Source: Planctomycetes bacterium syqfu
GTDB taxonomy: Bacteria; Planctomycetota; Phycisphaerae; Phycisphaerales; Phycisphaeraceae
DNA: 64,000 bases
Assembly (NCBI GenBank): GCA_020974905.1
Contig: CP087563.1
Location: forward strand, 62,001-126,000
Direction: 5' to 3'
The translations under genes and the position numbers were made by a program. This document shows, in pieces, positions 3,847-52,641 of the stretch. A model generated the notes under the pieces. That model ran no database searches, was not told the origin of the DNA, and was given only the letters and a program-made list of their open reading frames with translations. The stretch's first letter is position 1; the number at the start of each line of letters is the position of its first letter.

Positions 3847-5559
3847 GTGTCTGAAGCCAAACAGGTCAATGTTGTGTTGATTCTCACGGATGATCAAGGG
3901 TGGGGCGATCTGAGTCGCAGTGGTAACACACAGATTCACACCCCGCATATCGACAAGTTGGCTGCTGACGGCGTGACCATGGATAACTTTCATGTCCAAC
4001 CGCTTTGCGCCCCGACCCGCGCGGAAATTCTCACCGGCAGATACTTCCCCTGGACAGGCGTCCGTGGTGTGACACGCTGTGCGGAACGTTTGGATCTCAA
4101 CGAGACGACGATGGCTGACTGTTTCAAACAGGCAGGCTATGCCACCGGTTGCTTTGGCAAATGGCATAGCGGGATGCAGTATCCGTATCATCCCAATGGA
4201 CGTGGGTTTGACGAGTTTTATGGTTACTGCTGCGGGCATTGGAGTCACTACTTTGACTCCACCATTGAACACAACGGCGTTGAAGTACAGGCGCCCGGTT
4301 ATCTCACCGATGCGTTAACCTCGAAGGCCATCGAGTTTATACAGAGGCATCAAGACAAACCGTTTTTCTGCTATGTCCCGTTAAATACACCGCATTCACC
4401 GTTTCAAGTTCCTGATAGATGGTTTGATAAATTCGCTGATGCCGAGTTGCCACAGCGTGCGACATTCCCTGAAAATGAAAATCTCATGGAGACCCGCAGT
4501 GCACTGGCCATGTGTGAAAACATCGACTGGAATGTCGGCCGGATTCGTCAAGCACTCCAGGCATCTCAACTCACCGAGAACACAGTGATCATTTATCTCT
4601 CCGACAACGGCCCAAACACATGGCGTTACAACGGTCAAATGCGTGGCAAGAAGGGCGGTTGCGAAGAGGGGGGTGTGCGCAGTCCCTGTTCCATCACATG
4701 CCCGGGACTTCTTGCTGGCCAACAGGTCATCAAGTGTGTTGCAGGTGCCATCGACCTGTTACCGACGCTTGCAGAATTAACGGGAATCAAACTTTCGACC
4801 AACAAGCCCCTGGATGGCAAGAGTCTGGTCCCGTTACTCAAAGGTGATGATTCAGATTGGCCCGACCGTAACATCTTTGCCCAGAAAGTTGCTGGTTACA
4901 ATCAGCCTTTCGCCGAAGCCAGTGTCCGCAGCGATCGCTATCGTGCATATGAGGATGGCAGTATGTTTGATCTCACAACGGATATCGGTGAAACACATGA
5001 TTTGGCTGGCGAGTTGCCAGAGATTTCAGACAAGTTTAAAGCCATGTTGGCTGATTGGCGAAAGCGTTTACCTGACCATCGTTTTGATCAGGCTTTGCCG
5101 GTGGGCTACAGAGATTTTCCGATGACCTACCTGCCAGTTCAGGATGCACAGCCCGGTGGCGAGATCAAGTTCAGTAGTGTCCATCCCAACTGCTCATGGA
5201 TGACCAACTGGCATCAGATGGATGATCAGATCACCTGGCATATCAAAGTGAATACAGCGGGGCGCTATCGGGTAACACTGATGTATGCCTGTTCAGCGGA
5301 GAATGTCGGAAGTCATCTTGAATTGTCTTATGCCGATGACAGTCTGAGTTGCCAAATCACTGAGCCCTTTGATTCCGAGCCCAAGACGGGGTTTGACCGT
5401 GTACCACGACAGGAGTCCTATGATCGCGCCTTTACGCCACTTGAAATGGGCGAGTTGAATTTGGTCTCAGGGGAAGGCACATTGACCTTGCGATGCACAC
5501 ACCTTGCAGGACAGGAAGTCGGTGACATCCGTACATTGAGACTGGAACTTCTTGTTTGA
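3847..5559 (+). CDS. Family S1 sulfatase with C-terminal carbohydrate-binding-like domain
   Basis: A 570-residue arylsulfatase-type enzyme that hydrolyses sulfate esters, probably on a glycan. The core starts at once with VVLILTDDQGWGD (metal-binding Asp pair near residue 15). The formylglycine site CAPTR has its Cys at residue 54, followed by the GR of LTGR. Other core motifs are GKWHSG and LSDNGPNTW. Residues about 430-570 form a beta-rich extension (GRYRVTLMYAC, then an all-beta tail) resembling CBM6-like modules. The GTG start has an AAGGAG seven bases upstream. No signal peptide is visible, which is unusual because most sulfatases act outside the cytoplasm. Activity needs a formylglycine-generating enzyme, not seen in the window. 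Divergent from an AraC regulator. Confidence 0.92.
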   Translation: MSEAKQVNVVLILTDDQGWGDLSRSGNTQIHTPHIDKLAADGVTMDNFHVQPLCAPTRAEILTGRYFPWTGVRGVTRCAERLDLNETTMADCFKQAGYATGCFGKWHSGMQYPYHPNGRGFDEFYGYCCGHWSHYFDSTIEHNGVEVQAPGYLTDALTSKAIEFIQRHQDKPFFCYVPLNTPHSPFQVPDRWFDKFADAELPQRATFPENENLMETRSALAMCENIDWNVGRIRQALQASQLTENTVIIYLSDNGPNTWRYNGQMRGKKGGCEEGGVRSPCSITCPGLLAGQQVIKCVAGAIDLLPTLAELTGIKLSTNKPLDGKSLVPLLKGDDSDWPDRNIFAQKVAGYNQPFAEASVRSDRYRAYEDGSMFDLTTDIGETHDLAGELPEISDKFKAMLADWRKRLPDHRFDQALPVGYRDFPMTYLPVQDAQPGGEIKFSSVHPNCSWMTNWHQMDDQITWHIKVNTAGRYRVTLMYACSAENVGSHLELSYADDSLSCQITEPFDSEPKTGFDRVPRQESYDRAFTPLEMGELNLVSGEGTLTLRCTHLAGQEVGDIRTLRLELLV

Positions 5560-5560
5560 T

Positions 5561-6487
5561 TTAGTGATTGTCAGACGATTGTCTTTGAGCATGTTGCTTA
5601 CGCCATTGATGTGGCGCATGACTGTATTCATGACGATAAAGTCGCGTGAAATAACTCGATGATCCAAAGCCGCACATGTCTGCGATCTGTGCAATGGTCA
5701 ACGTGGGGTTGGTCAGCAGGGCATGGGCACGAACCAGTCTCGCTTTGATCAGATGCTCGTTGAAACTGAGTTTTGAAAATTGTTTGAACAGACGCGATAC
5801 GTGCGTCTGATTGATTTGCAAGGCCGTTGCGACATCCTGGCGTGAGATGTTTTGGCAGCAGTGCTCATCAATGTAACTACACGCTGCGTTAAACGTGTTG
5901 TAGGCTTTACCACCCGTCTGAGGATCATCCGGTTCCTTCAAGGCATCTAGCATGCAGTGGATCAAGCTGTGTGCCAGATTAACGAGTAATGGATCGTGCG
6001 TGTCTTTGGGGCTGCAACAACTCAACGCATCAAGTAGATGGGGGACACAGCTTTGCCTTTTGGATTTGCAGAACAGATAGGGTGTTTTGTGCAAGTCTAC
6101 AAACTGGGGTTTGGCTGTTCTTTTTCGCCGGGCTCGGATGGGTTGGGAGAAAAAGAAGCGAAACTGATCGATTTCAAACCGCCCGCCCAGTGAAAGATAA
6201 TCTTCCGTGGGTTGGAGAGTGATCCATGTATGTCTTAGTCTCAGAAGCATGTCGCCAGGGACGAGTTGAACACTGGTGAGTTTGCGTTTTTGGATGATTT
6301 GATACGTTGCCCTGCCACGCGCCACAGTGACGAATGAACCGGGGCAGGAGAGTATGCTGGTGTGCAGCCCTGGTACCGTGCCACCCTCCTCTGCTGCCCA
6401 ATAGACACGTCCTGTTGCCTTGGTGTTAAGCAGGTTCTCCAGTGTTTGCATTACCAGTGAAGATTCGGTTGTGTCTAAAAATGTCAC
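5561..6487 (-). CDS. AraC family transcriptional regulator
   Basis: A 308-residue regulator. Its N-terminal half is probably a cupin-type sensor (GDMLLRLRHTWITL, LGGRFEIDQFRFFF). Its C-terminal AraC double helix-turn-helix contains DVATALQINQTHVSRLFKQF and IADMCGFGSSSYFTRLYRHE. The GTG start at 6487 has AGGA eight bases upstream. Its stop lies one base from the stop of the convergent sulfatase gene. Its promoter faces the FAD oxidoreductase-sialidase gene across 168 bases, which is its most likely target. It is a different protein from the AraC regulator at 2876, not a close duplicate. Confidence 0.88.
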   Translation of the reverse strand: MTFLDTTESSLVMQTLENLLNTKATGRVYWAAEEGGTVPGLHTSILSCPGSFVTVARGRATYQIIQKRKLTSVQLVPGDMLLRLRHTWITLQPTEDYLSLGGRFEIDQFRFFFSQPIRARRKRTAKPQFVDLHKTPYLFCKSKRQSCVPHLLDALSCCSPKDTHDPLLVNLAHSLIHCMLDALKEPDDPQTGGKAYNTFNAACSYIDEHCCQNISRQDVATALQINQTHVSRLFKQFSKLSFNEHLIKARLVRAHALLTNPTLTIAQIADMCGFGSSSYFTRLYRHEYSHAPHQWRKQHAQRQSSDNH

Positions 6488-6655: not shown

Positions 6656-8953
6656 ATGCGTAAAAAACAGGATGCGTTTGATGTTCTGGTTGCCGGTGGT
6701 GGAATGGCTGGGGTTTTTGCCGCCATCGCTGCTGCAGAATCGGGTCGTAAAGTCTGTTTGATTGAACCGTCCAACATGCTTGGTGGGCAGGGGACGACAG
6801 GTGGGGTGGCAGGATTTTGTGGTGATACCCATACGGTGAATCGCGTTTTTGACGTGCTTGTTGATCAACTCAAGCAGCTTGATGCCATCAGTGATTTTCA
6901 TCCCTGTCATGATCGCCGTGCATACGATCTGGAACTCTGTGGATTCGTGTTGCAGGAGATGGTGCGTCAGGCAGGTGTCGCAGTGCTGCTGCACAGTCGG
7001 GTGATTGATGTCACCGCTGAAGAGGGGCGGATCACGGATGTTGCCGTGTCGACTGCTGGTGGTGTGATGCACATCAAGCCCTATGTGGTAATTGATGCCA
7101 GCGGGATTTGTGTGATGGCCAAGCAGGCAGGTATGCCGGTGATCCACCTGGGAGCCAATAAGCAGCTTCCCATGAGTCTTTACTTTACATTATGGGATAC
7201 GGGTAAACCGGTCACGCCCAAGTTACCCCAAGGTTGCCCGACTTGGGACAAGGATGAAGATTTACCCATGACGACTTTGCATCCATTTGGCAGTGGCAAG
7301 GTTGAAGTGAAAATGAAAGTCGTCGGCTTTGATGCAGCGGGTGGTCTGAGTCTGTCTGAAGCGGAAATGCATGCACGACAGCAAATGATGGGTTTGATTT
7401 ATTACCTGCAAACCAAGGGGTATCAGGGGAAAAAGCTTGATCAACATGTCCTTGCCAGCGTGTCACGCATGATCGGTATTCGGGAAGCTTGTCGGATTGA
7501 AGGTGAGTACATCCTCACACAAGATGAGGTGATGCATGAAGCGGTCTTCGATGACGCTGTCGCGGTAGGGACCTATCACCTGGATTATCACTGGCCGGAT
7601 CGTGTGCAACGCGCAGGCACCGGTATCACCACCATGGTCATGCCATACCACATCCCACTGCGGAGTTTAATCCCACATGGCAGCCGGAACATGCTTGTTC
7701 CCGGTCGCAGTGCATCAGGTGATCAGATGGCGATGAGTTCGTTCCGCGTGATGGCAACGTGTATCCAAATGGGCTACGCAGCAGGTAAAGCAGCCAGTCT
7801 TGCGGTGACACAGAACTGTGATGTGCCTGATATCCCCATCGCAACCCTGCAGGATCAACTTGAGAAAGATGGCCAATCACTCAACCTCACGGACTATGGC
7901 CTGTTTCTACGGAACCTGTTATTGCAGCATGAAACGGTCACACCCGATCAACCACCGTTTAAAAACTGTCACGCATCAACTTTATTGCAACTAGCCAATG
8001 GTCGAATACTCTGTGCTTATTTTGCTGGATCAGAGGAAGGTAAAGACGACGTGCGCATTTGGCTGAGTGTCCGCGAACAAGGATGCTGGCAAGAACCACG
8101 TTGCGTTGCTTCAGTCGAAAACGCACCGCATTGGAATCCGGTCCTCTTTGCAGATGAACAGGGCAAGGTGCATCTGTATTTCAAAGTCGGTAAGCACATC
8201 CGTGATTGGCAGACTTGGCAGATCACATCGAAAGATGAAGGCCAAAACTGGTCGAAGCCAACCCTGTTGGTTGACGATGGCAGTCACAGTCGCGGACCGG
8301 TCAAGAATAAGCCCATCATCCTCAGCAATGGTGATTGGTTGACGCCGTCAAGTGTCGAACCATCTGGTGATGCATGGCAGGTTTTCTGTGATCGGTCCAG
8401 TGATCAAGGTAAAACATGGCAGGCAACGCCACTGCTTCCCTTTTCTGATGAGATTGATTGTGAGCAACAAGGTGCCATCCAACCTACGCTCTGGGAGTCA
8501 GAGCCCGGTCATGTTCACATGCTCACGCGCAGTATATGTGGCTGGATTCTACGCAGTGACTCGTCGGACTTTGGCAAGACATGGTGTCCGCTTTATCCGA
8601 CATCAATAGCGAATAATAACAGTGGGGTTGATCTGGCCAAGTTGGATGATGGGAGCCTTGCCCTGGTATGTAATCCAATTCAAAACGCTGACTGTAGTCT
8701 GGATCAACGCAGCGTGTTGACCGTGTTTCGTTCCACTGACAATGGCAGGACATGGCAGAGCAGTTTGAAACTCGAAGATGAACCTGGCGAATTTTCCTAT
8801 CCCGCGATTATCCCCACACGCGTCGGAATGGCGATCAGTTACACTGCCAAACGCACGGCCATCAAGTATTGGCATGGTTCGATAGAACAGCTTCAATCCC
8901 TGACGGATCAACAGCCCGATGTGCAATGTCATGAACCGGTGACGGCAAAGTAA
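6656..8953 (+). CDS. Fusion of FAD-dependent oxidoreductase (N) and sialidase-like BNR propeller (C)
   Basis: A 765-residue two-part protein. Residues 1 to about 420 are an FAD-dependent oxidoreductase of the PF12831 type. They show the Rossmann motif VAGGGMAGVFAAIAAAESG, then IEPSNMLGGQGTTGG, and near the end LVPGRSASGDQMAMSSFRV. From about 425 to the end is a sialidase-like (BNR_2) six-blade propeller. Four clear Asp-boxes (S/T-x-D-x-G-x-x-W) appear near residues 525, 581, 636 and 693: SKDEGQNW, SSDQGKTW, SSDFGKTW and STDNGRTW. No signal peptide is visible, so it is probably cytoplasmic. An AGGA lies nine bases before the ATG. The reading frame is continuous with no sign of a sequencing join. 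The substrate is unknown. Divergent from an AraC regulator. Confidence 0.85.
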   Translation: MRKKQDAFDVLVAGGGMAGVFAAIAAAESGRKVCLIEPSNMLGGQGTTGGVAGFCGDTHTVNRVFDVLVDQLKQLDAISDFHPCHDRRAYDLELCGFVLQEMVRQAGVAVLLHSRVIDVTAEEGRITDVAVSTAGGVMHIKPYVVIDASGICVMAKQAGMPVIHLGANKQLPMSLYFTLWDTGKPVTPKLPQGCPTWDKDEDLPMTTLHPFGSGKVEVKMKVVGFDAAGGLSLSEAEMHARQQMMGLIYYLQTKGYQGKKLDQHVLASVSRMIGIREACRIEGEYILTQDEVMHEAVFDDAVAVGTYHLDYHWPDRVQRAGTGITTMVMPYHIPLRSLIPHGSRNMLVPGRSASGDQMAMSSFRVMATCIQMGYAAGKAASLAVTQNCDVPDIPIATLQDQLEKDGQSLNLTDYGLFLRNLLLQHETVTPDQPPFKNCHASTLLQLANGRILCAYFAGSEEGKDDVRIWLSVREQGCWQEPRCVASVENAPHWNPVLFADEQGKVHLYFKVGKHIRDWQTWQITSKDEGQNWSKPTLLVDDGSHSRGPVKNKPIILSNGDWLTPSSVEPSGDAWQVFCDRSSDQGKTWQATPLLPFSDEIDCEQQGAIQPTLWESEPGHVHMLTRSICGWILRSDSSDFGKTWCPLYPTSIANNNSGVDLAKLDDGSLALVCNPIQNADCSLDQRSVLTVFRSTDNGRTWQSSLKLEDEPGEFSYPAIIPTRVGMAISYTAKRTAIKYWHGSIEQLQSLTDQQPDVQCHEPVTAK

Positions 8954-8983: not shown

Positions 8984-11900
8984 TTACTCATATGCACCGG
9001 AAAATGCCGTATAACTCAGGGCAAAGAGCATCGGGTCCATATGCGGATTCTGAGCGGTGATTAATTCGATGCTGGCGATTTTCTTTTCCGGTGACGGGTT
9101 TTCCCAAGAGTAAATGCCGATTGCCATCAGTTCGCCGTCACCATTTTTCGGGTTCAGGAACTGCGTGCCCATGAGCAGGTGACGCTGGTCCGTGTAGGTT
9201 TTGCGCGTGTCCTGAATCTCATTTTTGAGTTTGATACTGATCGTGGCATCCGTCCCATCGTAGTAGTTGATGCGGTATTGACAGACGTTATTACCTTGCC
9301 CCCATGTCTTGATTTTATAGTTGAACGTAGTGGCATGGGCGAAGTGAATTTTAGATGCGTGAATGCGATCCAAGGTGATCTTGATACGGATTGGAGTGGT
9401 CTGCGTGAAGTTGTCGATGGGGGTGTCGGACATGAAGGCTTTGCCTTCATAGGCTGTTCCCATACGTGAATTCAGACGGATCATTGTTGCGGGTTGGTTT
9501 GTGGTTGCCTTGGCAAAGTCGAAGGTGATTCCATGCAGGTCCACGAGTCCGCTGGGCATGTTGGGGCCCAGATATTGTTCGGCTGAGACGTTGCAGAATG
9601 GTTTGAGATTGACGGTGTGAATCGTGCTGTCGGAACCTGAACGAATCGTCTTGCCAGCAAGGGCGATCCCCATTTGCGTGCTGATACTACAGAGCATTCG
9701 CATGCGCTGTTCATCATTGTCGACAACCTGGTTCCATTGCGAAACGTCCGCGAGAATGGTGCGGCCTTGATGTCGGTTAATGGCCATGATGCCCGGGTGC
9801 ATTGGAACGATCCAGTGATCATCAGCTTTAAACGTGACGGATTGGATAAGTGGTTTGGTAAACCAGTTCATGTCCGTACTGCTGACTCCGTCAAAAAGGA
9901 CATCACGCTGAACAAAGGCTGTGAGTAATGCAGTCGGCGTTTTCTTTTGGGACTTGCTGTCTGTTGGTAATTCATGCAGAGTGATAGGTTGACTTCCCAA
10001 AGCAGCGGTGAGTTGTTTGAGAGTGCTTTGATCCGTGACATGCAGGTGAATAAATCGAGCACGCTTGGCGATGCTGATGACCTTCTCAATGCCATGATGT
10101 TTAACGGCTTGATCGTCAACATACAAACCTGCGAAGTCCGCAGTGTCTTGCGCGTGCGTTTCCCAGCCCAGCTTATCCAGTAACTCCGCTGCATAGGTGT
10201 CCGTGCCGGAAAGATAATTGCCTTTGCCCCATTGCATGTTGTTTGTCGAACTCTGCGTCACATAGGCGATGAGATTAAACAAAACCTTGGCCGCAGCAGG
10301 GGATTGATCCGCCTTATCAAGCAGGAGTTGGCTGATAAGGTACTTGCCCTTGCCATGAATCATTTCAATGAGAATGCCGTCATTCAGTTCACGCCCGCCA
10401 TCAACAAGCACGTGAAAATTCCCACTCATTGGCTTGTAGCAGTTGGCATCACTGATCTGCATGCCTTGACCCCAGTAGGCAAAATCCAACTGGTCCATGG
10501 GGAGAATGGCATTGGTGAAAAAACTGTGATGTGGACTGCGAATAAAGCCGTTGGTTGCACCATTGAGTAGGCCATGTTTCAAGGCAATGCCCGATGGGAA
10601 AATATCCGGTAAATCCTCACGATCCAGCATCAACAAACGGCCACCCGCTGCAACGAACTGGCTGATCATCATCGCATGACTGAGCAATTGATCCGACGGT
10701 GTTTGCTTGCCAATGATCAACGCAGACTGGGCGTCGAGTTGGGACATGTCCGCAATCTTCTGGATTGGTTTGATCTGGATTTGCCATTGTTCAAGCAGTT
10801 TTACGATCTTTTCGGGGATAGCCAGGCCATACACAACACGGTTTGCCAGTTCGCGTGAATTAATCGGGGGATGGATTTTGACCGGGCGATTCATGGTGTA
10901 GACCTGCTTGCCTGCATGGTCAAAAAGCGTGGCGGTTAACGCGACGGTTTGCTCGCGTTCCAGAGTCTCAATTTGAATGTCAATCAATTGGCTACGGGAC
11001 TCAGATGCATTGAGACTTACGGGAATACGTGAATGCCAGTAATGTTTCTTGTCAGCTTGAACTGTCAGTTGGACATGCCCTTCAAAGGGATGGCCTGAGT
11101 GTTCAAAGAGTTGTAGTTCACACGTGTTCCTGCCTGTGGTCATTGCTGGGTTCAGCGATTTCCAGTAGACGGTTTGGGGTTTGAGTTCATTGGAAAGTTC
11201 TTTGACGAACGGGGAGTTGATGGCCGAGTCCAGGTACATGAAGTTAGGACTGAGCAATGCAACATTTTGTTCGCGGTAGCTGCGCACCGCCTGACGCCAA
11301 AGTTGTGCCAGGTAGTATTGGTACTTGGCATTGTTGGTTGGATCGCCATTTCGCAGGAATGTCATCTTGTCACCGAAGATGTACTCCAATTTCAGGCGAC
11401 TGTTGGGTGTGAGATGTTCGCCGATCCCAAGAGGCTTGACACCATCGGGCGGGAAATTTGTGTAGTTATCTGAGTACAGATGATTGTATTGTTCTGTTCG
11501 TCCTTTCCATTGCAGACTCAGGGGGAACTCCGGGCCACTGTCGGGATAGTGGATGTTGTAGATGTCGATCTTGCCTTGAGCATCACCGTAGCCAGAGTGC
11601 ATGACCAGACGTGACGGATCGTATTGCTTGTGTGTTTTTTGCACCTCAACCATAAAGGCCTCAGTCGCCTGGGGGCGGGGCGTGATCCAATGTTCAAACT
11701 CATTGGAGCCTGACCAGATGATGATGGAAGGATGATTACGCAGTTGCAACGTCATGGCCTTGACATGGTCCAGAGCAAATTTATTTTTTGGCCGGTGATT
11801 CAAACCCGTCTCAGCAACAATGAGAAACCCCGCTTCATCAGCAGCTTCGTAAAAAATCCGGTCGAAGACCTGACAGTGAAAGCGCCCGTAGTTGATACCA

Positions 11901-14062
11901 TGGCTGAGCATGGTTTTGAACACGTTGATCAGATCAGCCTTGTAACTGTCACCTGCTTCAACCCAGCTACGGCTGCGGGTCCATTCACCGATGTGCGCCC
12001 AAGGGCCGATGAGTTGGACTTTTCGGCCATTAAGCAGAATGTCTTCGCCACGTGCTTGGATGTCACGGTAGCCGAAGGTGGTCTCTAATTGGTCGATCAC
12101 CTGATTGTCAGCCAGTAGACGAAAGCGACATTGATACAGATTCGGTTGATCGATGTCCCACATCGCCAGTTTGTTGTTCACATCCAACGTGGCCGCTTGC
12201 TGTGCGTCGCGCTGATTGATGGTGACGATTTTCTCAAGGACCGTTCGGTTCTGTTTGTCGAGGATTTGGATTTGAAGTTTGTCTGCGTTTTTTGAGGCTT
12301 GGGTGAGTTGGACACTGGTGTACAGTTTCTGTTCGTTGACATCAGACCAGACAAACGGCTGGGCAAGAGATACGACAGGTCGGCGTTCGAGCATTGGGGC
12401 ACGGGCAAAACCGCGACGATACCGATACTGAGCGCCGATGGGCAGGATGACTTTGCCACCCTTTAGCGCTGCGTAGTAATTGCGGACTTTGATGAGTAAC
12501 TCGTGTTGACCTACTGATTGAATATGGTCCGTGAGATCCACTTCGGTGTAGGCCATGCCTTGTCGATCCGTCGCAACGGGTTTGCCATTGAGATAGACAT
12601 CGAGCACGAAGAATGTTTGCGGGAAAATCAGGACGATACTGTCTTGGATATCCTTTGCTTTGATATCAAGTGGCATGCGATACAGGGCACATTTGGCTTT
12701 CTCTTCTTGATTTTCAACCTGCCAACGCACACCGTAGTAGGAGTGTTCTGCGATGTCTGCTTTCTGCCAGCTCAGTTGATTCGTGTCGATTTGATTGACG
12801 TTGACATCTTCATCGACAAAGGTCATGCCCTGCATCAGTGTCAGTACTTCAGGTTGACGATAGGCAGCGGGAATCAAGTACGTTGGTTGGTCATAGGTCT
12901 GGCTTTGCTGCGTTTGGGGTTTCGTTTTTTCAGCAGGTTTATCTGCCATGATAGGAACAAAATCACTGAGTGGTGATTGGCTGAGCAGTAACTTGGTCAG
13001 ACCGATATGCCATGCGCTGGAGACTTTTTCCAGGTGAACGCGAATGTACCGAAATGGCTCGGATGCGTTGGCTAAGCGCAGGTAAACCAGTGATCGACCA
13101 CTGGGGACGGATTTGATTTTCGCGCTTGCGATGCTCGGCTGGATGCGGTAATTCACACCGTCAGCTGAAGTCTCGATGATGCAGTATTCACTGAGTTTTG
13201 ACCATGTGTTGGAAAACCCGTAAACCGCTAATTGCATGTCAGAAACATGCTCAGCCGTCGTGAGTCTTTGCACATCAAAAATCACATGACTGTCTTGGCT
13301 GACCTGTTTAAATCGGATGCGTGTGGCATCATCGTCATAGCGCTCTGCCTGATAGTCCGACCAGTTGGCATTGGAATAAGTGACAGGTAGATGCTTTTCA
13401 AAATCAATCAGCCACTGACCTTCGTCATGCGAAACGACACCCTTGGGCATTGACTGAGTTTTCTTGGCGACAGGTTTGGGGGCTGACTTTTTCCTGGCAG
13501 GTTCCGGCTTGGGCTGTTCAATCACCGGCATGGGGTCAGCAGTCATACGCATCTGGCCGATGACGACCTGCCATGTTGATTTGAGATTTTCCATGTGCAG
13601 TCGAACATAACGAAACACTGGTGCGTCGGGCTTGGTACGATAGACCTGCGAAGTGCGATTGCCCGGGAACTTGCCCAGCGGGGCGCTTTTAACCAACTCA
13701 ATTTTCTGATAGGACTCGGGCTTATCCTCCATGGCGACTTCAAGAACCAACGGCATGACATCCAGTGACTTGGTAGCTCCAAACGAATAAGTCAGGCATT
13801 CAAAGCCACGCACTTGATCGAGACCGACACATTGTTTGGCATCGAGGACGACATAACTTTTCTCATCAACGGGTTGAAACTGCAATCGCGTGGTATCACC
13901 GTCAAACTTCTCGGGCGTGTACTTGGGCCATTCCACATTCTCATGCCGGAGTGTGTTGGCCGGTGTGCAGTCAATGATGGATGTGTCTTTGTCCTGCGCG
14001 TGAAGTTGGGGAGCGCAGAGAGTCAGTGTGATCAGAAAACAAGTTGCCAGGCGCAGAATCAT
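8984..14062 (-). CDS. Secreted glycoside hydrolase family 2 protein, very large, with two discoidin-like N-terminal domains
   Basis: A 1692-residue protein with a signal peptide (residues 1-22, ending in HAQ). Two related beta-sandwich repeats of the F5/8 discoidin kind follow (about 35-175 and 215-375), each with a W-x-x-Y, an FDGDTTRLQF-like segment and an FRYIRVHLE-like end. Residues about 405-900 are the GH2 sugar-binding, Ig-like and TIM-barrel domains. NHPSIIIWSGSNEFEHW holds the expected acid/base Glu near residue 788, and the Glu of LGIGEHL near 881 is a candidate nucleophile. The remaining 800 residues include a flavodoxin/glutamine-amidotransferase-like region (SALIIGKQTPSD, AAGGRLLMLDRED) and a beta-rich end. 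GH2 members cleave beta-galactosides, mannosides or glucuronides; which one is not visible. It is the last gene after GntR and pseudopilin genes in the same direction. Confidence 0.85.
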   Translation of the reverse strand: MILRLATCFLITLTLCAPQLHAQDKDTSIIDCTPANTLRHENVEWPKYTPEKFDGDTTRLQFQPVDEKSYVVLDAKQCVGLDQVRGFECLTYSFGATKSLDVMPLVLEVAMEDKPESYQKIELVKSAPLGKFPGNRTSQVYRTKPDAPVFRYVRLHMENLKSTWQVVIGQMRMTADPMPVIEQPKPEPARKKSAPKPVAKKTQSMPKGVVSHDEGQWLIDFEKHLPVTYSNANWSDYQAERYDDDATRIRFKQVSQDSHVIFDVQRLTTAEHVSDMQLAVYGFSNTWSKLSEYCIIETSADGVNYRIQPSIASAKIKSVPSGRSLVYLRLANASEPFRYIRVHLEKVSSAWHIGLTKLLLSQSPLSDFVPIMADKPAEKTKPQTQQSQTYDQPTYLIPAAYRQPEVLTLMQGMTFVDEDVNVNQIDTNQLSWQKADIAEHSYYGVRWQVENQEEKAKCALYRMPLDIKAKDIQDSIVLIFPQTFFVLDVYLNGKPVATDRQGMAYTEVDLTDHIQSVGQHELLIKVRNYYAALKGGKVILPIGAQYRYRRGFARAPMLERRPVVSLAQPFVWSDVNEQKLYTSVQLTQASKNADKLQIQILDKQNRTVLEKIVTINQRDAQQAATLDVNNKLAMWDIDQPNLYQCRFRLLADNQVIDQLETTFGYRDIQARGEDILLNGRKVQLIGPWAHIGEWTRSRSWVEAGDSYKADLINVFKTMLSHGINYGRFHCQVFDRIFYEAADEAGFLIVAETGLNHRPKNKFALDHVKAMTLQLRNHPSIIIWSGSNEFEHWITPRPQATEAFMVEVQKTHKQYDPSRLVMHSGYGDAQGKIDIYNIHYPDSGPEFPLSLQWKGRTEQYNHLYSDNYTNFPPDGVKPLGIGEHLTPNSRLKLEYIFGDKMTFLRNGDPTNNAKYQYYLAQLWRQAVRSYREQNVALLSPNFMYLDSAINSPFVKELSNELKPQTVYWKSLNPAMTTGRNTCELQLFEHSGHPFEGHVQLTVQADKKHYWHSRIPVSLNASESRSQLIDIQIETLEREQTVALTATLFDHAGKQVYTMNRPVKIHPPINSRELANRVVYGLAIPEKIVKLLEQWQIQIKPIQKIADMSQLDAQSALIIGKQTPSDQLLSHAMMISQFVAAGGRLLMLDREDLPDIFPSGIALKHGLLNGATNGFIRSPHHSFFTNAILPMDQLDFAYWGQGMQISDANCYKPMSGNFHVLVDGGRELNDGILIEMIHGKGKYLISQLLLDKADQSPAAAKVLFNLIAYVTQSSTNNMQWGKGNYLSGTDTYAAELLDKLGWETHAQDTADFAGLYVDDQAVKHHGIEKVISIAKRARFIHLHVTDQSTLKQLTAALGSQPITLHELPTDSKSQKKTPTALLTAFVQRDVLFDGVSSTDMNWFTKPLIQSVTFKADDHWIVPMHPGIMAINRHQGRTILADVSQWNQVVDNDEQRMRMLCSISTQMGIALAGKTIRSGSDSTIHTVNLKPFCNVSAEQYLGPNMPSGLVDLHGITFDFAKATTNQPATMIRLNSRMGTAYEGKAFMSDTPIDNFTQTTPIRIKITLDRIHASKIHFAHATTFNYKIKTWGQGNNVCQYRINYYDGTDATISIKLKNEIQDTRKTYTDQRHLLMGTQFLNPKNGDGELMAIGIYSWENPSPEKKIASIELITAQNPHMDPMLFALSYTAFSGAYE

Positions 14063-14140: not shown

Positions 14141-14857
14141 TCAGGGCTTGTTGAAGTACCAACGGTTGTAGTATTCATCACTGGCATAGACCAGTTCGAT
14201 TTCTTCCTTGCTCAGGACCACGTGTCCGTCGACATGGCTGAAGACCGCGCCGCCGGGATGAGTTTCAATGTCGGGGACGCGACGCGAGCTGTCATTAATA
14301 CTGGTTGCAGATGTCGGGAAGGTTCGCCATGCCCAACGTGAGATACCACTGGTGGGACGCTTGTTGGCATCCATGGTGACATAGGTCTTCGACGGATTGA
14401 TGACGGCATCAGTGTGTTGGACATAGTGTGAATCTGCACCACTACTGGAACTGATGGCACCGGCAAAACGGTTCATGCCATAGCTTTTTTCCGTACTCCC
14501 CGATGCGCCCAGTACCTTGGCCGGGCAGATCATGAAATTGTTGGGGTTCTCCGGTTGGTAGACTTGTGCAAACTTGCCGTGGTTGGCCAGAAGGCGGGGC
14601 CACCAACTAGCATTGGAGTTACCGTCCCCGCAATACGTCGGTAAATATGCGTTGTAATCATTTTCATAAACCAACCATGCTGTGATGATCTGTTTGTGAT
14701 TGTTGGCACATTTGATCTGCACGGACGACGCTTTCGCCTTTTGCAGAGCCGGTAACAAAATGGAGATCAGCAATGCGATGATGGAAATGACCACCAGCAA
14801 TTCGATGAGTGTAAAAGCGTTTTGATTGATCGTATTTTGTCGAGGTGTGGTTTGCAT
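14141..14857 (-). CDS. Pseudopilin-like protein with H-X9-DG motif
   Basis: A 238-residue protein with a type IV prepilin N terminus: 14 hydrophilic residues, then [19 protein letters not shown] and a long hydrophobic helix ending in [11 protein letters not shown]. Near the C terminus [14 protein letters not shown] matches the H-X9-DG signature of planctomycete DUF1559-type pseudopilins. Cleavage would leave Ala, not the usual Gly, at position -1. The longer open frame to 15094 overlaps the regulator gene, so the start is placed at the ATG at 14857, with AAAGG about eight bases upstream. It is 37 bases downstream of a GntR regulator and 78 bases before the GH2 gene. Likely anchored in the cytoplasmic membrane; function unknown. 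Confidence 0.9.
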
Positions 14858-14894
14858 GGCGTAGCCTTTTCTCACTGGAGAACCGATCCTTGAT

Positions 14895-16043
14895 TCACGT
14901 GGTGTGTCCCCATGTGATCTGCCCACACACCGTCTGGCAGACCGGGGATTTAAGTTTGCCACCCACCAATGCCTGGGCCAGCAATGTAGCGTTGACACCT
15001 TTCTGGTAGGCGGAAATGTCGACAGTGGTAATGCCGAGCTTGATTGCTTTGGGATGTCCGTCAAAGCCTGTGATGGCAAGTTCGTTGGGGACATCCAATC
15101 CGGCTTTGTTGGCTTGTTCGAGTAATGCCATCGCCCGAAAGTCGTTGTAGCAGAACATCAACTCCGGCCGCTTGGATGCAGGCAGTTCGACAATCTGTTT
15201 GGCAACTAGATCGATCGATGCTGTACTGTCATCTGCAGCAAAGAACCAGTCTGCGTTTAAAGGAAGGTTGTGATCTTCATGCACATCACGCCAGGCGCGG
15301 TGACGCCCCTTGTAGCGATCCGGCGCACCAAAGCAACCAAGTTTCCGATAGCCTTTGTCGATCAGCGATTCAAGCAATTGATACGTGCTGTAATACGTGT
15401 CTTTGATCACGACGTTCAAGGGGGACATGGGGTGATTTTCAAATGACAGAAACACTACCGGGCAGGAGACCTGTTCAATGATCCATCGACCCTGTTCCAC
15501 GTCGAGTTTGTCGCATGCGAGCATGATTGCCTGAGAATGCGCCTGGGCCATCTCAAGGGTGTGGCTGACCTGTGGATCACGGTTGGCAAATTGGCTTTGG
15601 GGAATGATTGCCATGTGATGACGGATGCCCAGCATGGCGGAGGCTTCCTGGATGCCGGTGACCATCTGCTGTTTGATGCCTTCGATGTAAAGTGCAGCTT
15701 CGTCAACGCGGATGTTGGTCATCATGTCCTGTGTCCGACTGACAAAGAGCGTGGTAACCTGCTTGAGCCCGGTATCCATGGGCGTGAGACCAGGGCGGAG
15801 TTGGCTGGACGATTGACTGACAAAAATACCACTGCCGGATCGCGTCTCAAGGACACCCTCGGTTTTGAGTTGGTTAACAGCTTTGACAATGGTCACCGGT
15901 GAGACACCGTAGACCTTGCCAAGGTCCACGGTGGTGGGCAGGCGTTGCCCCGGGTCATAGACCTGCTGGCGTATTTTCTGTCGCAGGTCTCCGGCAATGT
16001 CGTTACAGATGGGTTTTCGGCCTGGTTTACGTGTGAGTGTCAT
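14895..16043 (-). CDS. GntR-type regulator with LacI-like sugar-binding domain
   Basis: A 382-residue protein. Residues about 12-80 are a GntR winged helix-turn-helix ([21 protein letters not shown], then [19 protein letters not shown] and RSGSGIFVS). The remainder looks like a periplasmic-binding-protein/LacI effector domain ([33 protein letters not shown]). This architecture is known from AraR-like sugar regulators. It is the first gene of a run that continues with a pseudopilin and a GH2 enzyme, so it probably controls that operon including itself. No convincing ribosome-binding site precedes the ATG. Confidence 0.88.
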
Positions 16044-20923: not shown

Positions 20924-21754
20924 TTATTCCCAGGTCATATCACGCCAAGCCGAGAATAATGGGCGGAATGTTTTTGAGTTACCTCCACGATTTTCCGCAT
21001 CGCGGGCATTGATAGTCCTGGCATGGCCGTCAAGGAATGCGACATTCATGACACTGTTGCTTGAATGACGGAATCGCAAACGGGTGTTGGTGCGGTATTC
21101 CATCTGCTCACCATTTTCCAGGAAGATCCATGAGGCATCCATGTAAATGCCCAGCTCGGACATGGATTTGGCAGCATGATTCTCAATCGTCGCTGCATCA
21201 TGGAACGGTCTGTTGCGCCAGGTTGGCAGCTTGGCAGCCAGTTCTGTAGCAAGTGACGTATCGTAGTACCCCCAGTACTTGACAACGGTGAACATCTCCG
21301 GGTTATAGCCATAGCTATGATGCGTGAAGTTCGGGGGCCATTTGGCGGGGTCGGGGAACTTGGGATGCGGGTTGTCCTGATCCCGGTACCAGTCGTCATA
21401 ACCCATGCCGTCAGGATTGCTCGGGCAATGCCAGACGCCGTAGGATTTGATGTATTCCATTTGGCGAAGTCGATTGGGAACCCACCACATGTTGTTGGCC
21501 GAGCTGCCATCGTAAAACTGAGTTGGGTAGTAATGATTGTCATTGACATAGTACTGCGTGGAGATCGTGATCTGACGCAGGTTCGAAGAACAATTAATTG
21601 CCTGGGCAGCCTGTCTGGCGCCTGCCAGAGCTGGGAGTAGTATGGCAATTAACAGGGAAATGATCGAAATGACAACCAATAGCTCAATGAGTGTAAACGC
21701 ACGGGCGGCATTGCCTGTGTCTTGCACGGATGCATGATTGGGGTTGTTATTCAT
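20924..21754 (-). CDS. Pseudopilin-like protein
   Basis: A 276-residue protein with the prepilin signature [19 protein letters not shown] after a short polar leader, and LLPALAGARQAAQAINC at the end of the helix. The C-terminal part has HSSNSVMNVAFLDGHART, a variant of the H-X9-DG motif with eleven residues between His and Asp-Gly. Trp- and Tyr-rich middle segments (NNMWWVPNRL, GYDDWYRDQD) suggest an exposed beta-rich head. Starts at 21754 and 21766 are both possible. It heads a run with two LacI genes, and its promoter carries the same operator as GH112 and the first DUF4091 gene. Function unknown; probably membrane-anchored with the head outside. Confidence 0.88.
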   Translation of the reverse strand: MNNNPNHASVQDTGNAARAFTLIELLVVISIISLLIAILLPALAGARQAAQAINCSSNLRQITISTQYYVNDNHYYPTQFYDGSSANNMWWVPNRLRQMEYIKSYGVWHCPSNPDGMGYDDWYRDQDNPHPKFPDPAKWPPNFTHHSYGYNPEMFTVVKYWGYYDTSLATELAAKLPTWRNRPFHDAATIENHAAKSMSELGIYMDASWIFLENGEQMEYRTNTRLRFRHSSNSVMNVAFLDGHARTINARDAENRGGNSKTFRPLFSAWRDMTWE

Positions 21755-21920
21755 AATGCAATCCATTCTTTATTCTATGATTTAACCTGCTAAATCAAAA
21801 CAGGTTTGCAAACGCAATCTCTGCATTACCGTGACAGGTCGCATTCGACACCTGAGCAGAGAGGTCGTATCCATGAATGCCGTTGGAACAAATGGTGATC
21901 TCGCATGCACACGAATTACA

Positions 21921-36633: not shown

Positions 36634-36692
36634 CGTTGCATGCAGGTGATATGTGTCTTTTGCACACATATCCGAACAGTTTGGAGAACACC

Positions 36693-37616
36693 ATGTCCAC
36701 GTCATCCACACGCACGAAGGCCTTTACACTCATCGAACTGCTCGTGGTGATTTCGATCATTGCGCTGTTAATTTCGATCCTCTTGCCTGCTTTAGGTAAG
36801 GCTCGTGATTCGGCTCGCAAAGTGCAATGTCTGTCGAATCTCAGGCAACTGAATATTGCCAGCTTCAGCTACCTTGCTGACAACAAGGATGTCTGGTTGC
36901 GCGGCTCCTATTCAGGTTACAACACACAAGGTAGCTTCAGTTACAACCCCGACTTCTATACGCTGTATAGTCATTACTTGGGTGGGGACCTGCAACTGAC
37001 ATCCAACATCGGCGGTCCTGATGGGCAAACGCATGGCACCAACGGCTTGCGCTTTAACACCATCAGTGTCTTCATGTGCCCCAACAATATCCGCCGAACA
37101 AGCAATCCCAACGATCCCGGACCTTACAACTACTACCGCAACAGCTATGCACTTTGGCCTGCAAGTACATCTGATTTCAAGATGACACAGGAACGACTCT
37201 TGCTCGCGGGGCAGTATCGTGGTTATCAGCAAATTCGTAATCCTGCGACGTGGTCAGATCGTTGTAACGTCTCAATCACCAGCCAGGGCAACAATGGTGG
37301 TTATGCTGAAACCAATCACTGGAACCCGCAAGGCAGCAATGACTGGTCTTCATCCTTCACCGGCAATCCTGAAGGTGGCAATGTCGCGCGTGCAGATGGG
37401 TCAGCAATCTGGTTCAGCTATGAATCAGACAACACCAGTAACAATGCCTTCATTCGCAATGGCGGTGCAGTTGGTGGGCATGTTGCCATCCCCTCCAATG
37501 CCATCTATCTGGCATTCAACAAGTATGCCCTGAGCACCAGCTACAGTGACCACCGTGCCATTCTCGGACGCTACACCGCTCAAGGCAGTAATTTTGGTAT
37601 CGCGATGGGGCAATAA
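36693..37616 (+). CDS. Pseudopilin-like protein
   Basis: A 307-residue protein with leader [17 protein letters not shown], a hydrophobic helix ending [17 protein letters not shown] and an Asn/Ser/Gly-rich head. Instead of H-X9-DG it ends with [14 protein letters not shown], a motif nearly shared with the pseudopilin at 51766 ([13 protein letters not shown]). The start at 36693 has TGGAGA six bases upstream; the longer frame from 36636 lacks this. It follows a GntR regulator and precedes the second giant NHL/CBM9 gene. Membrane-anchored, surface-exposed head expected; function unknown. Confidence 0.9.
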
Positions 37617-51739: not shown

Positions 51740-51765
51740 CCCGAACAATGAATTGTGAGGACAAC

Positions 51766-52641
51766 GTGAGACGAACCCAACATTGTGCTTTTACGCTGAT
51801 CGAACTGCTCGTTGTTATCAGCATCATTGCTCTGCTGGTCGCGATTTTATTACCGGCATTAGCCAGTGCACGTGAGGCTGCAAGACGGGCAATTTGTTTA
51901 TCCAATCTCAAGCAGCAATACATCGGCTTTGCATCGTATGCGACGGACTTTAAAAACCGATTGCCCAGTTCGCCCAGGGTCCCACACATCACAGGAGCCA
52001 TGGGCAATTACTCCGAGTACACCAACAGCTACACATTTTATGCCAACAACTATCTGAATATCAAAACCGAGAAGGGCTGGCATGGCAACGATTGGCGCGT
52101 GTCACTGGACGGTGATGCACTGGTCTGCCCGTCCAACAGTTTGATCGCACAGAAAGACTACACTTTCGGCAGTGATACATATTGGTCGAATGTACTTTAT
52201 ACCGTCCAACTCGGTGCCAAGTCGTCTGCAACAATTCCCGGTGATAGTGCTTTGATGGCTAAATACACCTTCATCTCACTGGATGCGGTGGGGCAGTCTG
52301 GCCCCTATGGAATGAAGGCGCTGGTTTTTGATTGTGTTGCTGCCAACCCCGGGACCAACCCGAGTATGTCCATTGTGTGGAACGCGCGAAATAACCATAA
52401 ATCCAAGGGCAAAGTGCAAGGCGGTAACGTGCTGCGTGGTGATGGCAGCGCTGTCTGGACAGATGTCGAGCGTTTCTCGCCGGTGCTTTATCCCGGTGAA
52501 GGGACGTCGATTCCCATCTATGACTATTACATTTTCAAAGGCCCGCACTGGTCAGGGGCAGACTGGGGGTGGATCGGCCCCAACGGTTCAGGCGGTTGGC
52601 AGAGTTATAACCAATCCACCGTGCCAAGTATGTGGTTTTGA
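51766..52641 (+). CDS. Pseudopilin-like protein
   Basis: A 291-residue protein with a very short leader before [19 protein letters not shown], a helix ending [17 protein letters not shown] and a head with [13 protein letters not shown] near the C terminus, like the pseudopilin at 36693. The GTG at 51766 is preferred because GAGG lies five bases upstream and the leader then has the usual basic form (MRRTQHCAF); an ATG at 51748 has no ribosome-binding site. It is directly downstream of a GntR regulator and ends at a shared terminator. Function unknown. Confidence 0.88.

Follow-up and report, generated by a model that had tools for sequence, protein, structure and literature searches.

The window examined here is a 64,000-nucleotide stretch of the Planctomycetes bacterium syqfu genome (contig CP087563.1, positions 62,001 to 126,000), in which a single gene, P0001, joins a flavin adenine dinucleotide (FAD) oxidoreductase to a propeller with the predicted fold of sialidases. 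This fusion is a real, rare and selected join of two known families. Its propeller belongs to a family in which two catalytic positions of sialidases are altered throughout. Our tentative reading is that the propeller acts as a ketosidase that releases a Kdo-type (i.e. 3-deoxy-D-manno-octulosonic acid-type) 3-deoxy-ulosonic acid rather than sialic acid, and that the flavoenzyme acts on the same substrate or its product.

The fusion is genuine and rare

A preliminary description of this DNA had placed a PF12831-type FAD enzyme and a propeller with four Asp-boxes in one intact frame lacking a signal peptide, and these features were all confirmed. The gene has 765 codons and matched two Pfam profiles, namely PF12831 (FAD_oxidored; profile positions 1-416 of 416, E 3.7e-85, 287.2 bits against a gathering cut-off of 27) and PF13088 (BNR_2; positions 1-273 of 277, E 1.1e-74, 251.8 bits against a cut-off of 31.4). 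None of the NCBIfam matches listed (25 of 60) exceeded its own cut-off. No leader was visible by eye, the FAD Rossmann motif beginning at about residue 8, and the protein looks cytoplasmic. Assignments of leaders, LacI and prepilins that lack a Pfam row were made by eye. The gene is laid out as follows.

6656..8953 (+): fused gene P0001, 765 amino acids (aa), ATG to stop; same frame in L020, 8001-10295
6680..7861 (+): FAD_oxidored domain (PF12831), residues 9-402, with the GxGxxG motif at residues 14-19 (Pfam, conserved columns)
7862..7942 (+): join, residues 403-429, without stop or frameshift (translation, comparison with G001)
7913..8893 (+): sialidase-fold propeller as modelled, residues 420-746, with PF13088 at 449-724 (Pfam, model, structure alignment)
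8228..8251 (+): Asp-box 1, residues 525-532, N replacing T (read off the translation)
8396..8419 (+): Asp-box 2, residues 581-588 (read off the translation)
8561..8584 (+): Asp-box 3, residues 636-643 (read off the translation)
8732..8755 (+): Asp-box 4, residues 693-700 (read off the translation)

An assembly error or frameshift at the join was ruled out because the window genome (G000) is one contig of 7.38 Mb and the frame of 765 codons recurs, at 91.6% identity and gapless, in a metagenome-assembled genome (MAG) of the same genus (i.e. G001, Phycisphaeraceae; PAIY01000120.1, contig 138, locus L020). A missed stop or frameshift near position 7920, or a join unique to this assembly, had been named in advance as grounds for discarding the fusion; neither was found, the MAG having the same join. 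Purifying selection acts on both halves, as the ratio of non-synonymous to synonymous substitution rates (dN/dS) between the window and the MAG was 0.055 for residues 1-402, 0.088 for residues 403-448 (i.e. the join), 0.058 for residues 449-745, 0.183 for the last 20 residues and 0.063 for the whole gene.

A further genome of the genus, G003, has the two halves as separate genes in reversed order. The propeller gene (51% identical) comes first and ends 47 bases before the FAD gene, which at ~67-68% identity is the closest unfused FAD homologue among the matches listed. The window genome also has its own unfused propeller paralogue (53% identical), adjoining a LacI-like gene and the gene for a 939-aa protein, as in G003, without an FAD gene. 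Neither half had a strong match in G002 (78% complete), a fourth genome from the genus (best E 2.4e-16). Among the matches listed from 41 relatives, 392 phylum genomes and 397 class genomes (overlapping sets), G000 and G001 were the sole genomes with a full-length match to the fusion; for the phylum and class sets two candidates per genome were scored (E 1e-30 and 1e-35), so that distant fusions could be missed. An exact-peptide-pattern scan covering 84,980 species with one genome each, which may omit near relatives of the window, returned three loci, L020 being the only fusion, and none of 406 plasmid records with a match covered 80% of the fusion query. Within the scope of these scans, the proposed search for proteins with both domains in this order yielded one further species. 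No description of an FAD-propeller fusion, or of the gene neighbours of the propeller family, turned up in a literature search.

Predicted fold and putative active site of the propeller

An AlphaFold2 model of the propeller, built on four sequences, had a predicted local distance difference test score (pLDDT) of 84.8 and a predicted template modelling score (pTM) of 0.87. The propeller was assigned the sialidase fold, as modelled, because VIA-align matched the model to NanI (Z 35.8, root-mean-square deviation (rmsd) 2.5, 317 aligned) and to a Micromonospora sialidase (Z 35.8, rmsd 2.4, 307 aligned), and Foldseek agreed on the sialidase match (best E 1.6e-14). The positions below are labelled, Glu568 apart, by the catalytic roles of the sialidase residues aligned with them.

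7970..7972 (+): His439, at the place of the first triad Arg of the RIP motif (profile-profile and family alignments)
8357..8359 (+): Glu568, kept in 100 of 100 sequences with a letter (family alignment)
8480..8482 (+): Gln609, at the place of the catalytic Glu of glycoside hydrolase (GH) family 33 (HMMER and family alignments)
8528..8530 (+): Arg625, second triad Arg (HMMER, profile-profile and family alignments)
8708..8710 (+): Arg685, third triad Arg, its register taken from the profile-profile and not the sialidase B alignment (alignments)
8798..8800 (+): Tyr715, nucleophile Tyr position by the HMMER alignment, shifted by two in the profile-profile alignment (alignments)

When a 28-member profile was compared with sialidases A, B and C by HMMER, all five printed alignments set Gln609 opposite the catalytic Glu. 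Arg625 coincided with the second Arg and Tyr715 with the nucleophile; the sialidase B alignment did not pair the third Arg. Against 11 sialidase-like proteins from the phylum, profile-profile alignment (probability 99.9) placed His439 at the RIP Arg and Arg685 at the third Arg, left the Glu loop gapped and shifted the Tyr by two. For these controls 12 loci were kept and L099 was dropped for lacking RIP; the 11 were thus chosen on this motif and are sialidase-like by sequence only. Two propeller genes of the window genome (L084 and L085) were set aside as possible controls, no RIP motif being seen by eye.

Conservation was examined in 101 family sequences (i.e. 99 loci, the window and L066), chosen by profile score and including three truncated ones (L113, L134 and L155) without a letter at the His site. 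The place of the catalytic Glu is taken by Gln in 101/101 and that of the first triad Arg by His in 98/98 with a letter, while Arg625 is kept in 101/101 and both Arg685 and Tyr715 in 100/100 with a letter. The acid/base loop, where the register is uncertain, has Glu461 in 98/98 with a letter and Asp465 in 90 of 98. The Gln, His, Arg, Tyr and Glu positions are nearly or fully invariant in these sequences; the family has a distinct, conserved set of putative active-site residues and not a decaying one.

The sialidase assignment of the preliminary description did not survive these comparisons. Its suggested check of the Arg triad and nucleophile Tyr found the second and third Arg and the Tyr position in place, with His for the first Arg and Gln for the catalytic Glu; a GH33 fold is thus present by the model, and a full arginine triad and a Tyr nucleophile with its Glu partner are both missing. 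As the two replacements run throughout the family, a canonical sialidase was rejected, and specificity for sialate was not borne out by these residues or by the genes beside relatives, which suggest Kdo-like acids together with rhamnose.

Neighbours, fusion partners and phylogeny of the propeller family

Neighbouring genes were read within up to 4 kb on each side of 99 family loci (89 planctomycete, nine from plasmid records and one from Clostridiaceae). This set is not random, some stretches end at contig ends, and among the planctomycete loci are several that are closely related, the fusion being represented once by L043. A gene of the dihydrodipicolinate synthase (DHDPS) family of aldolases lay within 4 kb at nine of the loci, and within 100 bases at seven of these; five were among the 89 planctomycete loci and four among the 10 others (i.e. 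Clostridiaceae, Martelella, Klebsiella and Proteus). None was found near the propeller in the Pandoraea, Monoglobus, Bacteroides, Rufibacter, Croceibacterium and Paraburkholderia loci. The aldolases of the Clostridiaceae, Klebsiella and Martelella copies are mutually 46-60% identical. The Klebsiella and Proteus gene rows include an FGGY pentulose kinase that passes its NCBIfam cut-off, and the Klebsiella protein between kinase and aldolase gave a weak fucose isomerase C-terminal match (E 3.7e-5; 23.8 bits, below the cut-off of 29.3).

The Klebsiella row, a putative acidic-sugar gene row, is located on Klebsiella pneumoniae plasmid pRHBSTW-00867_2 (L069, 3723-11624) and comprises a pentulose kinase, an isomerase-like protein, DHDPS, the propeller, a major facilitator superfamily transporter and LacI. 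The plasmid is typed as conjugative, and IS5 and IS110 transposase genes flank the row on both sides. A similar row was observed in Proteus mirabilis (L080). The Klebsiella aldolase-propeller DNA was unmatched in an E. coli collection, and the Klebsiella and Clostridiaceae propellers had no NCBIfam match at 1e-5.

Sugar-cleaving enzymes, alpha-L-rhamnosidases among them, also adjoin or are joined to a few members of the family. A GH106 gene follows the propeller gene in Clostridiaceae and Monoglobus; the Bacteroides finegoldii propeller (30% identical to that of the window) is the C-terminal part of a GH78 rhamnosidase and adjoins an apiosidase-family gene; and a GH78 domain is fused to the propeller in planctomycete G741. 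Fusion partners in the family were a sulfatase (L105), GH78 (L079 and L114), an esterase-like domain (L111), FG-GAP repeats (L103 and L106) and laminin G (L109). Planctomycete cases among them include L105 (2692-5511, minus strand; sulfatase), L111 (3846-5729, minus; esterase-like alpha/beta hydrolase) and L114 (3-2834, plus; GH78). Sulfatases occurred near 13 of the 99 loci; this proximity was not counted as evidence because sulfatases are abundant in planctomycetes. In a quick tree, the window propeller fell into a 16-row clade with the Clostridiaceae, Monoglobus, Klebsiella, Proteus and Martelella copies (Shimodaira-Hasegawa-like approximate likelihood ratio test, 99), and four planctomycete DHDPS neighbours fell outside it.

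An FAD gene beside the propeller was rejected as a general family association. In G163 (L180, 10422-12986, minus), a leader-bearing propeller gene directly follows an FAD_oxidored gene whose product by eye has a twin-arginine-like leader; this is the order of the fusion, but the proteins are apparently exported and the FAD gene is only 28% identical. This adjacency may be due to chance: PF12831-like candidates are frequent in the genomes of relatives, with up to 47 first-look candidates in one. Because such genes are so common, the G163 pair was left uncounted and that of G003 alone was counted.

Propeller relatives were also observed on viral contigs, where scans gave two phage loci with a propeller relative and one FAD locus, two further scans being empty. 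Two IMG/VR contigs (L065, 1-1047, and L066, 2887-3933) carry what is by eye the same leader-bearing relative beside apparent phage tail genes, and this protein keeps the His and the Gln. A phage collection yielded two distant relatives, 33.6% and 23.7% identical to the L066 protein.

The flavin half

The FAD-binding motifs are kept in the FAD half of the window protein (13 aligned rows), which in the alignment is nearest to the G003 protein (67%) and to a protein of G056 (54%). No propeller relative was found in G056 (88% complete) at E <= 1e-3. A search of solved structures with an FAD profile returned mainly the Rossmann part among the matches listed and pointed to no substrate. The window genome encodes another PF12831 protein (L005, 919-3228, minus) with ~310 C-terminal residues that lack a Pfam match at E 0.001, and by eye a divergent AraC-like gene adjoins it.

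A possible Kdo-type ketosidase coupled to flavin oxidation

The reading of the propeller as a Kdo-type ketosidase can be set out as a series of putative steps. An acidic, sulfated oligosaccharide would be imported, and the neighbouring sulfatase would perhaps remove sulfate. The cytoplasmic propeller would release a Kdo-type acid, possibly from rhamnose-Kdo units, and the PF12831 half would oxidise either the freed ulosonic acid or the remaining partner sugar. In other bacteria, this flavin step would be replaced by, or run beside, a DHDPS-type aldolase. We infer the cytoplasmic site, the Kdo substrate, hydrolysis, the target of the flavoenzyme and AraC regulation. The preliminary description had proposed sequential steps on one intracellular substrate; two enzymatic steps stand as the best reading, and sialidase specificity does not.

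Two steps on one substrate were favoured because family members are fused to, or lie beside, rhamnosidase, sulfatase, esterase and aldolase genes, and the sulfatase, rhamnosidase and esterase-like fusions fit the view that fusion partners share a substrate. Kdo cleaved by a pyruvate aldolase yields D-arabinose as well as pyruvate, and the pentose could feed into an isomerase and a pentulose kinase. Splitting of a C8 ulosonic acid by such an aldolase leaves a pentose, while sialic acid would leave a hexosamine; the pentulose kinase of the Klebsiella and Proteus rows therefore fits a C8 ulosonic acid. Rhamnose-Kdo is a side chain of rhamnogalacturonan II (RG-II), and the GH78-propeller setting of Bacteroides finegoldii resembles RG-II loci by analogy. 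G003 has a DHDPS orthologue (37% identical) on a different contig from its propeller genes. A doubtful extension of the ketosidase reading would make the family the entry enzyme of a Kdo pathway (i.e. ketosidase, DHDPS-type Kdo aldolase, D-arabinose isomerase and pentulose kinase), working by a different mechanism with Gln, and these Phycisphaeraceae would have replaced the aldolase branch by the fused flavin oxidation. A literature search turned up no description of such a pathway.

A number of results weigh against the Kdo reading. Replacement of the catalytic Glu by Gln speaks against the usual retaining mechanism of sialidases and leaves hydrolysis putative. The aldolase partner that Kdo use would lead one to expect is present at nine of the 99 family loci and absent within 4 kb at the other 90, and six of the nine were known beforehand and had served as seeds of the DHDPS model. 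By reading, the genes adjoining the fusion in the window include neither DHDPS nor a pentulose kinase. The best DHDPS of G000 is 24% identical (E 9e-13) and is no close orthologue, that of G001 (88% complete) has E 1.4e-8, an orthologue seeming absent, and the FGGY pentulose kinase relatives are distant (32%, 25% and 31% in G000, G001 and G003). Pandoraea, of the same proteobacterial group, has no DHDPS in its 17 kb. The RG-II-like Bacteroides protein, the G741 GH78 fusion and the sulfatase fusion belong to the other large clade and not to that of the window. An FAD_oxidored gene was found near only three of the 99 loci, these being the G001 fusion itself, the G003 pair and G163. As G056 has its 54% identical FAD relative without a propeller, the flavoenzyme appears not to depend on the propeller and can work alone, perhaps on a small soluble sugar or acid. 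The full-length structure model was unusable for the FAD half (mean pLDDT 33.7).

Some of the same evidence would suit an eliminase (i.e. a lyase) or another non-GH33 enzyme acting on a rhamnose-uronate linkage, cleavage following once the flavoenzyme had made a ketone. The family-wide Gln and His are consistent with such an enzyme, the invariant His, Tyr and Glu could perform acid-base chemistry, and the fusion order puts the FAD domain before the propeller. Rhamnosidase neighbours and, in the G116 stretch, a heparinase II/III-like protein ~3 kb off point the same way, and DHDPS could take 2-keto-3-deoxy acids derived from uronates. However, the Tyr persists together with two of the three Arg that make up the carboxylate-binding triad, a pentulose kinase suits a C8 acid better than a C6 acid, and 96 of the 99 loci have no FAD_oxidored gene within 4 kb. 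We regard an eliminase as unlikely. It is improbable that the propeller lacks catalysis and only binds sugar, handing an acidic glycan on to the flavoenzyme. The altered sialidase catalytic pair and the variety of fusion partners (sulfatase, GH78, esterase, FG-GAP and laminin G), often a trait of binding modules, would agree with it, but residues of the putative catalytic face are nearly or fully invariant in the 101 sequences, making pure glycan recognition less likely, and several free-standing propeller genes are tightly packed with an aldolase gene.

The two halves might also act on different compounds, the fusion being a near-neutral gene join. Its presence in only two species and the FAD relative without a propeller in G056 are compatible with this, but a whole-gene dN/dS of 0.06 and the adjacency of the closest unfused homologues in G003 render it distinctly improbable. 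Least credible, and in our view very improbable, is that a true sialidase or trans-sialidase has been joined to a redox enzyme. The fold match (VIA Z 35.8), the Asp-boxes and the annotation of relatives as exo-alpha-sialidase speak for it; they are opposed by Gln for Glu in 101/101 and His for the first Arg in 98/98 sequences with a letter, and by the pentulose kinase of the Klebsiella and Proteus rows, which stands in place of the expected hexosamine route.

Gene neighbourhood of the fusion

Three genes surround the fusion.

3847..5559 (+): sulfatase (PF00884), no visible leader; same order in G001 (L043) (frames, Pfam)
5561..6487 (-): AraC-family regulator, divergent from the fusion across a 168-base gap (frames, Pfam)
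8984..14062 (-): 1692-aa protein with GH2 domains and, by eye, an apparent leader; convergent neighbour (frames, Pfam)

The order AraC, sulfatase, AraC, fusion and GH2 protein is common to the window and G001 (L043), the GH2 protein of the latter being cut by the contig end. The preliminary description had put the fusion under an adjacent AraC regulator. A divergent gene is indeed present directly upstream, and from its position a role as local regulator is plausible; promoter and terminator scans gave chance level only.

Elsewhere in the window, four proteins (14141-15094, 20924-21766, 36636-37616 and 51748-52641) have a prepilin-type leader ([12 protein letters not shown]), and by eye a regulator gene of the GntR- or LacI-like type adjoins each. 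L044 and apparently L042 show a comparable arrangement in which the regulator is XylR-like. Two other clusters of the window genome (L084, 7427-11333, minus; L085, 7546-10372, plus) contain Asp-box propellers of another type with sugar-acid type genes, which in L084 include DHDPS.

Significance and comparison with known systems

The fusion itself is modest, being a rare joining of known parts with putative chemistry. More interest attaches to the propeller family. Public records call its members exo-alpha-sialidase or sialidase family protein, labels that are probably wrong, and the altered catalytic pair within a well-studied fold is directly testable. Sources of Kdo include plant RG-II, algae and bacterial envelopes. 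If the family cleaves Kdo-type acids, it would provide a route to the use of Kdo, to which the fusion would add an oxidation step.

Compared with GH33 sialidases (e.g. NanI, the Micromonospora viridifaciens sialidase and human Neu2), the window propeller has the same fold by the model, Asp-boxes, the Tyr and two triad Arg, but differs in having Gln for the Glu and His for the first Arg, and its relatives have neighbours unlike those of sialic acid use. A GH33 Kdo hydrolase has been named among the RG-II enzymes (PMC11214529). The window propeller shares its GH33-type assignment; the likeness, drawn by description and not by sequence, runs through the Bacteroides finegoldii relative of the other clade, and the passage naming this hydrolase mentions no FAD partner, such as the window protein has. 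The seven propeller-family fusions that were scanned have the same BNR_2 domain joined to a glycan-related or accessory domain, and in none of the seven is the partner an oxidoreductase, as it is in the window. With PF12831 FAD_oxidored proteins the window protein shares a full-length profile match and the FAD-binding motifs; it differs in carrying a propeller, where L005 has another C-terminal extension.

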